This document shows, in pieces, positions 8,483 through 13,762 of a stretch of 64,000 bases of DNA (positions within the stretch are counted from its first letter, which is position 1; each line of letters starts with the position of its first letter). Below the pieces are notes generated by a model, which ran no database searches, had not been told where the DNA came from, and saw only the letters and a program-made list of their open reading frames with translations. The stretch spans positions 1 to 64,000 of the forward strand of contig NZ_JARUKV010000001.1 in NCBI RefSeq assembly GCF_029688865.1. The letters run 5' to 3'. The position numbers and the translations under genes were made by a program. This stretch comes from Natronococcus sp. A-GB7. GTDB lineage: Archaea > Halobacteriota > Halobacteria > Halobacteriales > Natrialbaceae.

Positions 8483-10255
8483 ATGAATCGTCAGTCAACT
8501 ACTCGACCGAACGGCGTCGATCGGCGCTCGGTGCTGGCCGCGGGTGCCACCGGACTCGCCCTCGCGACCAGCGGCTGTATCGATCGCGTCGAGAGCGCCG
8601 TCGGACAGGAGACGGACCGCCTTGCCCTCTCTATCACGACCGTCCCCGCGGACGGCGACAGAGAGGCCGTCCGGATCGCCCGCCAGCTCGAGGCGAACCT
8701 CGAGGCGGTCGGAATCGACGCCTCGCTCGACATGCGCTCGCGCTCGGAGTTCCTCGAGGCGGTGTTGATCGACCACGACTTCGACCTCTACGTCGGGCGC
8801 CACCCCGCCGACTTTGACCCCGATTTCCTCTACGAGATGCTACACTCGGCGTACGCGAACGAGTCGGGCTGGCAGAACCCGTTCGGGTTCGCCAACATCC
8901 CCTTCGACGACCACCTCGAGGCCCAGCGGCGGGTCGACGGGGAGCCACGCCGGGAGCGGGTCGCAACCCTGCTCGAGGCACTGGCCGAGGAGAACCCCTT
9001 CGACCCGATCTGTTTCCCCGAAGAACACCGCGTGGCACGAACCGACCGCTTCGAGGGCTGGAGTGCCGACCACCCCGAGAGCCGTCACGGCTACCTCGAA
9101 CTCGAACCCGACGAGGACGTCGACCGACTGCGCGTGCTGGTCACCGACTCCCGGATCTCGCGGAACCTGAACCCGCTGTCGGCGACGCTTCGCGAGCGCG
9201 GCTCGACGATCGACCTCGTCTACGACTCGCTCGCGACCGAACACGACGGCGACCTCGTCCCCTGGCTGGCAGAGGACGTGGAGTTGCGGAGTGCCGACGG
9301 GGACGACGACCACGTCGCCGAGGCGACGATAACGCTCCGCGAGGACTGCCGCTTTCACGACGACGAGCCCCTCGACGCCGACGACGTCGCCTTCACCTAT
9401 CGGTTCCTCGAGGACACCGCACTGGGTCGGTCCGAATTCCCGTCGCCGGCCCCGCGCTACCGAAGTCACGTCTCGACGCTCGAGGGCGTCACCGTCGAGA
9501 GCGACCGCGAACTCCGTCTCGAGTTCGCGACAGGTCTCGAGGCCGCGAGACGCGCGCTCACCGTCCCGATCCTCCCCGAACACCGGTGGCGCGAACAGGT
9601 CGAGGCTCGCGTCGGGAACGCCGAGGCGTTCACCGCGACCCAGGGCCAGTGGGGGCTCGTGACGATGGACAACGTGCCGGCGATCGGGAGCGGTCCGTTC
9701 CGCTTCGAGAGCCGGAGCGAACGTGAACACCTCACTCTCGAGCGCTACGACGACCACTTCACCGGGCGCGAGGACGTGGACCTGCCCGCGGTCGACGTCG
9801 AACGGCTGCAGTTCGGTATCGATCCGGGCAGCGCGTCCTCGATCGAGCGCGTCGCGAACGACGGCGCCGACGTGACGGCGTCGATGCTCGAGGCTCACGC
9901 GCTCGAGACGATCCCCGACGATCCAGCGGTCGACCACCTCGAGTCGCCGTCACGGTCGTTCTATCACGTCGGGTTCAACGCGCGAATCGAGCCGTTCAGC
10001 AACCCCCACGTTCGTCGACTGGTCGCCGGACTGCTCGACAAGTCGTGGATCGTCGACGAGATCTTCGACGGCCACGCGACCCCCACCGCGACGCCGCTGC
10101 CCGAGGAGTGGGAGCCCGAGGAGCTGATCTGGGAGGGGACGGATCCGGTGACACCGTTTTTCGGCGCTGACGGCGAGCTCGATGCCGAGGCCGCCAGGGC
10201 GGCGCTGGAGGACGCGGGATACCGATACGACGAGCAGGGGCGGCTCCACCAGTAG
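8483..10255 (+). CDS. Tat lipoprotein, SBP_bac_5-like substrate-binding protein, circularly permuted (copy 1)
   Basis: Extracytoplasmic, lipid-anchored binding protein of 590 residues. The signal has twin arginines at 14-15 and a lipobox ATSGC with Cys32. Residues 46-192 look like the part that normally ends SBP_bac_5 proteins: a helix before GIDASLDM, then HDFDLYVGRHPADFDPDFLY, then LLEALAEENPFDPICFPE. Only afterwards come the usual N-terminal elements (residues 215-310: NLNPL, VYDSLAT, LREDCRFHDDEPLDADDVAF). The middle follows (GSGPFRFES), and the protein stops at the helix pair AARAALEDAGYRYDEQGRLH, where normal members would continue. The order is thus a circular permutation. A PAP2 gene starts 4 nt downstream; no permease or ATPase is near. 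The ligand is unknown. Confidence 0.85.
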   Translation: MNRQSTTRPNGVDRRSVLAAGATGLALATSGCIDRVESAVGQETDRLALSITTVPADGDREAVRIARQLEANLEAVGIDASLDMRSRSEFLEAVLIDHDFDLYVGRHPADFDPDFLYEMLHSAYANESGWQNPFGFANIPFDDHLEAQRRVDGEPRRERVATLLEALAEENPFDPICFPEEHRVARTDRFEGWSADHPESRHGYLELEPDEDVDRLRVLVTDSRISRNLNPLSATLRERGSTIDLVYDSLATEHDGDLVPWLAEDVELRSADGDDDHVAEATITLREDCRFHDDEPLDADDVAFTYRFLEDTALGRSEFPSPAPRYRSHVSTLEGVTVESDRELRLEFATGLEAARRALTVPILPEHRWREQVEARVGNAEAFTATQGQWGLVTMDNVPAIGSGPFRFESRSEREHLTLERYDDHFTGREDVDLPAVDVERLQFGIDPGSASSIERVANDGADVTASMLEAHALETIPDDPAVDHLESPSRSFYHVGFNARIEPFSNPHVRRLVAGLLDKSWIVDEIFDGHATPTATPLPEEWEPEELIWEGTDPVTPFFGADGELDAEAARAALEDAGYRYDEQGRLHQ

Positions 10256-10259
10256 TCCG

Positions 10260-11123
10260 ATGGACGGCGAGGTCCTCACGCGAGTCCTGACGCAGGTCGC
10301 CGTCGTCGTCGGACTCCTACTGGCGGTCTCGATTGCGGCGTTTGTCGGTCGCGACCGCCTCGTCGCGACGGCCCGCGAGTGGCGACCCCGTATCCGGGCG
10401 TCGGCGCCCGCGTTCGCGGTGCTCGTCGTCGTGCTGTGGCTCAATCGGGTCATGCGACAGGCCGGACCGGGGATCTCGGAACGCATCGGGCTCCACATGA
10501 CGGAGACGTTCTACGACCTCGAGGGGGAGTTCGTCCTCGTCTTCCAGTCGATCGCGACCGGAGAGCTGACGGCGTACTTCTCGTTTATCTACGTCTACGG
10601 CTATGCCTTCCTGCTGATCTTCCCCGGAGTCGCGTACTTCGCGCTGTCAGAGACCCGGACCTTCCGCCGGCTGCTGACGGCGTACTCGCTGAACTACGTG
10701 ATCGGGCTGGCGTTTTACCTGCTGATCATCGCCTACGGGCCACGAAACGTGATGCCCGAGGAGCTGACGGTGACGATGCTGTACGACAACAGCCCCGAGT
10801 ACCAACACCTCACCCGCGAGGTCAACCGCAACACCAACGTCTTCCCCTCGCTGCACACCTCGCTCGCCGCCACCGTCGGCATCTTCGCCTACGAGACGCG
10901 CTCGAGCTACCCCTACTGGTTCCCCGTCGCGGCCGTCCTCGCGGCAAGCGTCGCGATCTCGACGATGTATCTGGGGATCCACTGGGCGATCGACGTCGTC
11001 GCCGGGCTGGTACTCGCCGGCGTCTGCGTCCGGCTCTCGGGGACCCTCGTCGGCCGACGACCGATCGCCCGACTCCGTCGGTACCTCGATCGACGGCCGG
11101 CCTCGCCGGACGACCGCGAGTGA
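10260..11123 (+). CDS. PAP2-superfamily membrane phosphatase/transferase (copy 1)
   Basis: Polytopic membrane protein of 287 residues with about six helices. PAP2 motif C2 is NVFPSLHTSLAATV at about 192-206 and motif C3 is YLGIHWAIDVVAG at 237-249, giving the two catalytic histidines and the aspartate. A GPRN motif at about 160-163 stands where classical PAP2 enzymes carry the K-x6-RP motif. This places it near the inositol-phosphotransferase-like (Aur1/PAP2_3) branch, which acts on lipid-linked phosphates (family knowledge). Active residues would face outside. The ATG at 10260 is 4 nt after the stop of the permuted binding protein, so both are one operon. The substrate is unknown. Confidence 0.85.
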   Translation: MDGEVLTRVLTQVAVVVGLLLAVSIAAFVGRDRLVATAREWRPRIRASAPAFAVLVVVLWLNRVMRQAGPGISERIGLHMTETFYDLEGEFVLVFQSIATGELTAYFSFIYVYGYAFLLIFPGVAYFALSETRTFRRLLTAYSLNYVIGLAFYLLIIAYGPRNVMPEELTVTMLYDNSPEYQHLTREVNRNTNVFPSLHTSLAATVGIFAYETRSSYPYWFPVAAVLAASVAISTMYLGIHWAIDVVAGLVLAGVCVRLSGTLVGRRPIARLRRYLDRRPASPDDRE

Positions 11124-11177
11124 GCCCGAACGCAATACTGTTATACCGACACTGGCTGAACTGAAGGTATCCACCGA

Positions 11178-12926
11178 ATGACCGACGGAACGCCGGCACC
11201 GTCCGAACGCCCCCGAAGTCGGCGCGCGGTTCTCGCCGGGACGGCCGGGCTCGCCGTCGCGACCAGCGGCTGCGTTCGCCAGGTTCGGACCGTCGTCAAC
11301 CGCGAGGCGGTCGACCAGCTCTCCGTGACCATCGTCACCCTGCCGGCCGACGGCGACCGCGAGGGGATCCGCCTCGCGCGTGAGGTCGCCGCCGTCCTCG
11401 AGGCCGTCGGGGTCGATGTCTCGATCGACATGCGTTCGAACGAGGAGTTCCTGCGGGCGGTCCTGATCAACCACGAGTTCGACCTCTACGTCGGTCGCCA
11501 CCCCGGGAGCACCGACCCGGACTTCCTCTACGAGGCGCTGCACTCGGTCTACGCCGAGGAGTCCGGCTGGCAGAACCCCTTCGGTTACGCGAACCTGCAA
11601 CTGGACGACCTCCTCGAGGCCCAGCGTCGGGCCGACGGCGAGGAGCGCGAGGCGATCCTCGCCGAGCTGCTCGAGGAGCTGGCCCGCGAACAGCCGTTCG
11701 CTCCGATCTGCGTGCCCGAAGAGCACCGCTTCGTCAGGACCGACCGCTTCGACGGCTGGGGCGAGGCCCATCCGTCGACCCGACTGGGCTATCTCGACCT
11801 CGAGCCCGGCGACGACGTCGATCGGCTGCGGACGGCCCACACCGACGCGCGCATCTCCGAGAACTTGAACCCGCTCACGGCCGAGTACCGCGACTACGAG
11901 CCGTTCCTCGAGCTGGTGTACGACTCGCTGGCGACCGAGCGTGACGGCGAGATCGAGCCCTGGCTTGCCGAGGACTGGGCCTACGACGACGGCACCCTTC
12001 GAGTCCGGCTCCGCGAGGACTGCCGGTTCCACGACGACGAACCGCTCGACTCCGGCGACGTCGAGTTCACCTACCGGTTGCTGCAGGATAGTGAACTTGG
12101 GGGAGGAGAGTCGTCGTCGCCCCCGCCGCGGTACAGGGGGCTGGCGGCGGCCGTCGAGGCGATCGACGTCGACGGCGACCTCGACCTCGAGTTCGAACTC
12201 GAGGCGGGCGAGGCCGTCGCCGAGCGCGTCCTCACCGTGCCGATCCTCCCTGAACACGTCTGGAGCGAGCGAGCCGCGCCCGCCACCGTTCGCGGCGTCA
12301 GCGTCGCCCAGGGTGCCACCGAGGCGGTGACAACGGACAACGTCCCACCGATCGGCAGCGGTCCGTTCCGCTTCGGAAGCCGGACCGAACGGGAACACGT
12401 GACCCTCGAGCGGTTCGACGACCACTTCACCCGTCGCGAGGGCGTCGATCTCCCCGAGGCAAGCGTCGAGGAGCTTCGGGTGGGGATCGATCCGCGGAGC
12501 ACGTCGGCGATCGAGCTCGTCAACACTGACGGCGCCGATATCACGAGCGCGATCCTCGAGACGTACGTTCTCGACGACCTCGAGCCGGCCCAGGAGACGA
12601 TGTCCCTCGAGTCGCCGTCGTGGACGTTCTACCACCTCGGGTTCAACACCCGTCGGGCGCCGTTCGCCAACGCCCGATTCCGACGCGCGGTTGCGGGGCT
12701 GCTCGACAAGGACTGGCTCGTCGACGACGTCTTCCACGGCTACGCCGAACCGACCGCGACGCCGGTCACCGAGGAGTGGACGCCCGAGGGACTCGCCTGG
12801 AACGGCGAGGATCCGGCGACGCCGTTTTTCGGTTCCGACGGCGACCTCGACGTCGAGGCCGCCAGGGAGGCCTTCGAGGACGCCGGCTTCAGCTACGACG
12901 ACGGCGCACTTCGGGTGAGACGCTAA
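11178..12926 (+). CDS. Tat lipoprotein, SBP_bac_5-like substrate-binding protein, circularly permuted (copy 2)
   Basis: Paralogue of the 8483-10255 protein; 582 residues with twin arginines at 15-16 and lipobox Cys32. It has the same permuted order: the FDLYVGRHPGSTDPDFLYEA region near residues 95-120 precedes the canonical start (NLNPLTAEY, VYDSLATERDG, LREDCRFHDDEPLDSGDVEF). The protein then ends with AAREAFEDAGFSYDDGALR, where ordinary members would continue into their second lobe. The similarity to copy 1 runs from the signal to the last residues, so the cassette was duplicated after the permutation arose. A TGTTATACC element about 35 nt upstream may be its own promoter. Its stop overlaps the next ATG. 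Confidence 0.85.
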   Translation: MTDGTPAPSERPRSRRAVLAGTAGLAVATSGCVRQVRTVVNREAVDQLSVTIVTLPADGDREGIRLAREVAAVLEAVGVDVSIDMRSNEEFLRAVLINHEFDLYVGRHPGSTDPDFLYEALHSVYAEESGWQNPFGYANLQLDDLLEAQRRADGEEREAILAELLEELAREQPFAPICVPEEHRFVRTDRFDGWGEAHPSTRLGYLDLEPGDDVDRLRTAHTDARISENLNPLTAEYRDYEPFLELVYDSLATERDGEIEPWLAEDWAYDDGTLRVRLREDCRFHDDEPLDSGDVEFTYRLLQDSELGGGESSSPPPRYRGLAAAVEAIDVDGDLDLEFELEAGEAVAERVLTVPILPEHVWSERAAPATVRGVSVAQGATEAVTTDNVPPIGSGPFRFGSRTEREHVTLERFDDHFTRREGVDLPEASVEELRVGIDPRSTSAIELVNTDGADITSAILETYVLDDLEPAQETMSLESPSWTFYHLGFNTRRAPFANARFRRAVAGLLDKDWLVDDVFHGYAEPTATPVTEEWTPEGLAWNGEDPATPFFGSDGDLDVEAAREAFEDAGFSYDDGALRVRR

Positions 12927-13762
12927 TGTTGGTCCAGGTGTTGCTCCAGCTGGCCGTCGTCGTCTCCCTGTTGACGCTCGCGGGGATCGCCGTCGTCGTC
13001 GGTCGCTATCGGCTCCGAGACACGCGCCGCGAGTGGGCGTCCCGACTCCGCGCGGCCACGCCGATCACGGTCGTCCTCGCCGTCGTCCTTCTCGCCAACA
13101 GCGTCGCCAGGCAGGTCGTTCCCGACCTCTCGTGGATGATCGGCTGGAACCTCACGTGGGCGATCTACGATCTCGAGGGCCAGTTCATCCTCTGGCTACA
13201 GTCCTTCGAGACGCCGGCGCTGACGGCTTTCTTCTCGTTCGTCTACATCTACGGCTACGTCTTCCTGCTCGTCTTCCCCGTGGTCGCGTACTTCGCGCTG
13301 TCGAACACGCGACCGCTGCGGGAGCTGCTGACCGCCTACACGCTCAACTACGTGCTGGGGCTGGTGTTGTACACGTTCGTCATCGCCTACGGCCCCCGAA
13401 ACATGATGCCAGAGCTGGTCGACGCGCTGATGTACGACACTTACCCGCGCTACCAGCACCTCACCCGGCAGGTCAACCGCAACACCAACGTCTTCCCGTC
13501 GCTACACACCTCGCTGGCCGCCACCGTCGGCGTCCTCGCCTACCAGACCCGGGAGGTCTACCCGCGGTGGGCGATCGTCGCGGTCCCGCTCGCGATCAGC
13601 GTCGCGATCTCGACGATGTACCTGGGGATCCACTGGGCGATCGATGTCGTCGCGGGGATCGTCCTCGCGTACGTCTGCGTCAAGCTCGCGGGCGTCCTCG
13701 TCGGTCGGTGGGCGATCAGCGACCGATTCGACGTCGGAAACCCGCTCTCCCGGCTGCGCTGA
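12926..13762 (+). CDS. PAP2-superfamily membrane phosphatase/transferase (copy 2)
   Basis: Membrane protein of 278 residues, paralogous to 10260-11123. It has the same GPRN motif, motif C2 (NVFPSLHTSLAATV from about residue 187) and motif C3 (YLGIHWAIDVVAG near 232-244), with a YIYGYVFLLVFPVVAYF helix between. The ATG overlaps the TAA of the preceding binding protein by one base (TAATG), so the pair is tightly coupled. The overlapping longer frame starting at 12620 lies inside the binding-protein gene and was rejected as start. The repeated pairing with a permuted binding protein implies a shared function at the outer face of the membrane (inference). Confidence 0.85.
   Translation: MLVQVLLQLAVVVSLLTLAGIAVVVGRYRLRDTRREWASRLRAATPITVVLAVVLLANSVARQVVPDLSWMIGWNLTWAIYDLEGQFILWLQSFETPALTAFFSFVYIYGYVFLLVFPVVAYFALSNTRPLRELLTAYTLNYVLGLVLYTFVIAYGPRNMMPELVDALMYDTYPRYQHLTRQVNRNTNVFPSLHTSLAATVGVLAYQTREVYPRWAIVAVPLAISVAISTMYLGIHWAIDVVAGIVLAYVCVKLAGVLVGRWAISDRFDVGNPLSRLR

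Follow-up and report, generated by a model that had tools for sequence, protein, structure and literature searches.

That the bilobal fold of substrate-binding proteins (SBPs) tolerates circular permutation is known from engineered biosensors, in which the permuted chains are designed and not natural. A natural case, likewise a bilobal binding lipoprotein of an ATP-binding cassette (ABC) transporter and maintained within its family, is TpMglB-2 (Tp0684), classed as "Type Ic / Cluster Bc", with no recurrence of the permutation noted in the available part of its description (PMC4990184). In AliD, lobe 2 is a contiguous domain III (residues 297–582) and lobe 1 takes both chain ends (PMC11192437), and domain III of EppA is contiguous too (303–530; PMC7312458). 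We analysed a stretch of 64,000 nucleotides of Natronococcus sp. A-GB7 (GCF_029688865.1, contig NZ_JARUKV010000001.1, positions 1 to 64,000), referred to as a whole as the window, in which two genes, copy 1 and copy 2, encode proteins of the NikA/DppA/OppA family (cluster C, PF00496). Each of them is very probably a membrane-anchored extracellular SBP with a complete two-lobe fold and a naturally circularly permuted chain.

With DppA, OppA, NikA, and AppA (SBP_bac_5, cluster C) the window proteins share the profile family, the full set of blocks, the predicted two-lobe fold, and, in many relatives, the type of operon, but two blocks are exchanged, the chain ends lie in lobe 2, and the old ends are joined in lobe 1. 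TpMglB-2 has a cluster B sugar-binding fold with a break in the N-lobe and a fourth hinge crossing, whereas the window family belongs to PF00496, cluster C, with its break in lobe 2. Natural circular permutation in cluster C SBPs is real and apparently new, with the cluster B protein TpMglB-2 as its nearest precedent. No report of a permuted cluster C SBP was found in the PDB or in the open literature, subscription journals and preprints lying outside the search, and this is a major topology without a found report inside a very large, well-studied protein family.

Block order and fold of the window proteins

Both open reading frames were confirmed at the coordinates given earlier. The PF00496 scores of the two copies (142.6 and 162.7 bits) lie above the curated cut-off of 32.4, and the proteins are 59% identical from the signal through to the end. 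An RR motif and the lipobox TSGC (Cys32) were recognised in both by eye. Judged from their sequences, both are complete SBP_bac_5/cluster C binding proteins and Tat (twin-arginine) lipoproteins.

PF00496 matches each copy in two stretches. The initial annotation had proposed that the segment closing ordinary family members stands here directly after the lipobox, followed by the start block, and that the two parts be searched separately. In copy 1, residues 46–192 alone matched PF00496 positions 290–362 of 368 (E = 1.2e-4) and residues 215–590 matched positions 2–282 (E = 1.7e-35); the same pieces of copy 2, tested apart, matched 290–360 (E = 0.004) and 1–283 (E = 1.9e-43). Because the Pfam model ends before the C-terminus of the family, a canonical-only profile of 532 positions was built from 42 canonical proteins. 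In both copies it matched the closing segment first, with independent E-values of 3e-19 (copy 1) and 2e-19 (copy 2), and then the start block (2e-48 and 1e-51; boundaries in Table 1). The blocks thus stand in rotated and not in canonical linear order, and in copy 1 every block of the fold is present once, with about four profile positions absent at the break.

Comparison by hhalign of permuted and canonical parts in all four combinations gave the same picture. The permuted N-terminal part matched the canonical closing part (probability 99.2%, E = 1e-19) and not the canonical start part (0.2%), while the permuted C-terminal part matched the canonical start part (100%, E = 7e-57) and not the closing part (0.2%), so that no canonical closing segment is left at the C-terminus. 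A full closing segment in that position, or an N-terminal part that does not align to the end of PF00496, had been named beforehand as arguing against a permutation; neither was found, and the two-block matches together with the hhalign comparison bear out the permutation in both copies.

The AlphaFold2 model of copy 1, made from an alignment of permuted proteins only, is a single fold (mean predicted local distance difference test, pLDDT, 90; predicted template modelling score, pTM, 0.88), and copy 1 is predicted to keep the two-lobe fold. A permuted protein from an Archaeoglobi-like genus gave pLDDT 86 and pTM 0.83. The top Foldseek matches of the copy 1 model were all family members (NikZ, AppA, DppA), with a template modelling score of about 0.45 over some 400 columns, a value in keeping with a sequential alignment that can place just one of the two blocks. 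Among the matches listed, none of the solved chains has the permuted order: almost all of the matches fall on the start-block half, in its canonical position, and every two-block alignment is rotated relative to the permuted query.

The break lies between the LLEEAGY helix and the next strand, where canonical proteins have a variable loop, often of the form DxDGDGxRE..G; on E. coli DppA it maps between ALLKEAGLEK and GFSIDLW, at about precursor residue 372. The first block of copy 1 (residues 45–201) comprises half of lobe 2 and the return strand of the hinge, which was assigned by chain order. In the model, the crossings so assigned (return strand 173–186, outgoing strand 441–446) are both more than 120 residues away from either new end. 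New ends at the point where the chain passes from one lobe to the other, as had been expected, are therefore not supported: given the position of the cut and the contiguous domain III of AliD and EppA, the new ends sit in a loop within lobe 2 (domain III), and the two old ends, which belong to lobe 1, became joined. Such natural permutation loops are ready-made permutation sites for biosensor design.

Distribution of the rotated order and a recent replacement

A PF00496 search of the whole host genome, combined with a reading of the frames, identified nine family members, three canonical (C40, C23, and C41) and six permuted. The six permuted proteins are collinear end to end, with identities to copy 1 down to 22%. 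Three of them (contigs 9, 27, and C1:290k) are encoded beside Opp/Dpp permeases and ATPases (loci L012, L013, and L014), and the other three (copy 1, copy 2, and contig 14) have a PAP2_3 gene directly downstream. A survey of haloarchaeal homologues, suggested in the initial annotation, found full-length collinear matches in at least 93 of 194 Halobacteria genomes, a hand count of distinct genomes among the best matches listed.

Permuted relatives were also named in the alphaproteobacteria Neorhizobium, Nitratireductor, Ketogulonicigenium, and Roseomonas. A genome scan followed by an order test added Trueperaceae (Deinococcota), Brevibacillus, Dethiosulfatibacter, and Anoxynatronum (Bacillota), Spirochaetota, Thermodesulfobacteriota, one Burkholderiaceae and one Acidiferrobacteraceae bacterium (Pseudomonadota), one member of the Micromonosporaceae (Actinomycetota), and, among archaea, one of the Desulfurococcaceae (Thermoproteota). 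Several of these carriers are metagenome-assembled genomes. Permuted SBPs head Opp/Dpp operons in Nitratireductor, Ketogulonicigenium, Roseomonas, and Halalkalicoccus, and the bacterial operon neighbours include M20/M28 peptidases and hydantoinases.

The order test, applied to 151 open reading frames (near-copies included), scored 102 as permuted, 47 as canonical, 2 as partial, and none as ambiguous; E. coli DppA, OppA, and NikA scored as canonical. An order common to so many frames agrees with the earlier view of the rotation as old and maintained, and a sequencing or assembly error is rejected by its conservation in many genera and in six copies of the host genome. What had been described as a property of two copies does hold for both but is not confined to them, being widespread and recurrent. 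A Cytobacillus protein (L055) that tblastn listed with a coverage of 92% turned out to be canonical, two pieces having been joined by the search, so that coverage by itself is no test of chain order. Profile searches show permuted SBPs as partial matches, and they are annotated plainly as "ABC transporter substrate-binding protein", which can lead to errors in domain boundaries, alignments, and trees wherever they are included.

A recent case was found in one Archaeoglobi-like genus (family f14), where three genomes have only the permuted gene (G285, G293, and G332) and four only the canonical one (G269, G281, G392, and G419, two of these 79–89% complete). Both blocks are 84–88% identical between the permuted and canonical orthologues, with their positions exchanged. 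The old C-terminal end, RYYLIYEV before the stop codon in the canonical protein, reads RYYLVYSEEQKDTITIGVTDK in the permuted one, whose chain now ends in YLKKAGYSE; after the lipobox the permuted chain opens with EEAKKLKIELWW, the canonical reading at that point being AGYSEDNKLKLELWW. A permease operon, about 91–97% identical, is common to permuted and canonical genomes, the permuted gene lying divergently beside it and the canonical gene unlinked. Mutually exclusive orthologues and a shared operon indicate that the rotated protein replaced the ordinary one, and presumably it uses the same transporter. A pair of orthologues about 85% identical and differing in chain order is a natural experiment on the importance of that order for the folding, export, anchoring, or docking of a binding protein.

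A separate observation concerns a permuted SBP at L149:5236-6972 (minus strand), which carries a C-terminal PGF-type transmembrane anchor, so that here the new C-terminal end, and not the N-terminal one, is anchored.

Origin, recurrence, and causes of the permutation

The permuted chain most likely originated by tandem duplication, fusion, and trimming. In it, a linker of about 16 residues connects the old C- and N-terminal ends within lobe 1, and the new opening falls in a loop midway through lobe 2. Lobe 2 is thus made up of the two terminal parts of the chain, and the lipid anchor exits from lobe 2 instead of lobe 1. Closure on the ligand should proceed as in any Venus-flytrap SBP, and the permuted relatives that head operons most likely supply Opp/Dpp permeases with peptides or similar solutes, as their operon context suggests. 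The general function, solute binding for uptake, would be ordinary; the topology and its recurrence are not.

Several points weigh against parts of this interpretation. The closing segment of the window copies, taken alone, scored below the Pfam gathering score, so that the case for these copies rests on the family profiles. The structure comparison of the copy 1 model was made with Foldseek in its sequential, order-dependent mode. No tandem in-frame intermediate was found, and the duplication route is therefore one that we infer. Peptide-like ligands and delivery to permeases are suggested by the operon neighbours, and the partnership of the window pair with PAP2 proteins, described below, is a genomic association.

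As to the cause, we regard near-neutral fixation as the most likely, with somewhat better than an even chance: duplication, fusion, and trimming would be tolerated, because lobe 1 contains both old ends and the loop in lobe 2 varies, and lineages would drift into the rotated form. The recurrence at one variable loop, the retained operon context, the replacement of a canonical orthologue in one genus, and the existence of soluble and anchored forms alike speak for it, although the broad presence in Halobacteria and the long conservation of the topology may hint at a benefit.

Another candidate cause is adaptation to membrane tethering, with the anchor moved off the ligand-binding N-terminus, as the TpMglB-2 authors proposed for their protein (PMC4990184). 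Most sampled haloarchaeal permuted members do have a lipobox (30/34 in one group and 9/10 in another), but among the bacterial proteins of the sample one is present in just 8 of 30 permuted members, compared with 24 of 33 canonical members, most bacterial permuted members having cleavable Sec or Tat signals. These counts weaken tethering as a general cause, and we consider it unlikely.

How often the rotation arose was addressed with trees in which the canonical sequences, rotated in silico, were placed together with the permuted ones. Most of the spread belongs to one lineage, a main clade of 56 permuted rows (Shimodaira–Hasegawa-like approximate likelihood ratio test, SH-aLRT, 83; 97/96 in a smaller, careful tree) that includes both window copies, alphaproteobacteria, spirochaetes, clostridia, and Thermoproteota. 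This would suit a single permutation event followed by vertical descent and transfer to all permuted proteins. However, four further permuted groups fall among canonical proteins, five order changes are required in all bootstrap trees, and a constraint uniting the permuted rows in a single clade was rejected by the approximately unbiased (AU) test (p = 1.9e-89), in which the permuted group was defined before the tree and the sampling was partly steered by earlier trees. Canonical L158/L159 form the sister group of the haloarchaeal L005-type, all of them with a family-specific insertion, and the Archaeoglobi-like L148/L150/L151 nest among canonical proteins about 85% identical to them. In addition, Archaeoglobi-like SBPs of 706–715 amino acids from three genomes match the canonical profile in the order 449–521, 39–162, 183–441, and are thus cut at a different loop, between positions 441 and 449. 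A first quick tree had placed the long-branch permuted L005 and L008 among canonical proteins; with more relatives, L008 moved into the main clade and L005 remained separate. A single origin is therefore very improbable, unless one allows for several returns to canonical order; some of the five order changes could in principle be reversions. The haloarchaeal subfamily with the long insertion is a second independent switch within Halobacteria. As an example of this subfamily, L013:6733-8667 (minus strand) can be set beside L158/L159, the long insertion being shared across both chain orders.

Least credible of all is that the N-terminal 150 residues are an independent extra domain before a truncated canonical SBP, which could appeal to the weak Pfam matches of the closing segment in the window copies but is ruled out by the profile and hhalign tests, the N-terminal part matching the canonical closing segment and nothing else and the C-terminal part lacking one, and also opposed by the whole-chain pTM of copy 1 and by the Archaeoglobi-like case, where the block is about 85% identical to the C-terminus of the canonical orthologue.

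The window pair and its coupled PAP2 genes

Table 1. Positions of the window pair, its parts and coupled genes, and of permuted and canonical proteins compared with it (window coordinates unless a locus is given)
Feature	Position	Strand	Basis or remark
Copy 1, permuted SBP_bac_5 protein, 590 aa	8483..10255	+	
Copy 1, twin-arginine signal peptide and lipobox TSGC, Cys32	8483..8578	+	direct sequence reading
Copy 1, residues 45-201, canonical closing segment, first moved block	8615..9085	+	canonical profile 370-521
Copy 1, residues 202-217, linker from old C-end to old N-end, lobe 1	9086..9133	+	unmatched stretch separating the two profile hits
Copy 1, residues 218-586, canonical start block through AGY helix, second block	9134..10240	+	canonical profile 44-365
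PAP2_3 membrane phosphatase-like gene coupled to copy 1	10260..11123	+	starts 4 bases after copy 1 stop
Copy 2, permuted SBP_bac_5 protein, 582 aa	11178..12926	+	
Copy 2, residues 58-199, canonical closing segment	11349..11774	+	canonical profile 382-518
Copy 2, residues 227-576, canonical start block through AGF helix	11856..12905	+	canonical profile 52-365
PAP2_3 gene coupled to copy 2	12926..13762	+	stop/start overlap TAATG
Archaeoglobi-like permuted orthologue (example)	L195:7139-8710	+	~85% identical to the canonical orthologue
Archaeoglobi-like canonical orthologue (example)	L193:8000-9553	+	~85% identical to the permuted orthologue
Second-site permuted SBP	L212:3828-5945	-	canonical profile matched as 449-521, 39-162, 183-441
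Second-site permuted SBP	L213:3368-5512	-	canonical profile matched as 449-521, 39-162, 183-441
Second-site permuted SBP	L214:4006-6135	-	canonical profile matched as 449-521, 39-162, 183-441

No ABC permease adjoins the window pair, and permeases elsewhere in the genome could serve it in trans. The SBP-PAP2-SBP-PAP2 unit is conserved with its flanks in Natronorubrum bangense, and SBP-PAP2 pairs were found in all the PAP2-type loci examined, also in Haladaptatus. This pairing in every locus of the subfamily that was read points to two options, that the SBPs of the window pair serve a distant permease or that they hand their ligand to the PAP2 protein; probably it is one of the two, neither of which we would rate above about one half. 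A broader proposal would make the NikA/DppA/OppA family a permutation hot spot in archaea and bacteria, where one loop was the site of about five independent order changes and a second loop of one more event. The window-type pair would then have left ABC transport and would pass its ligand on to a membrane phosphatase of the PAP2 type, toward which the rotated topology would turn the anchored lobe; taken as a whole, this seems unlikely to us.

Two further arrangements were noted. A PAP2_3 gene is also found at L015:6931-7857, coupled to a permuted SBP of the same subfamily, and in some genomes two SBPs share one PAP2 gene in the order SBP-PAP2-SBP (for example, L108).

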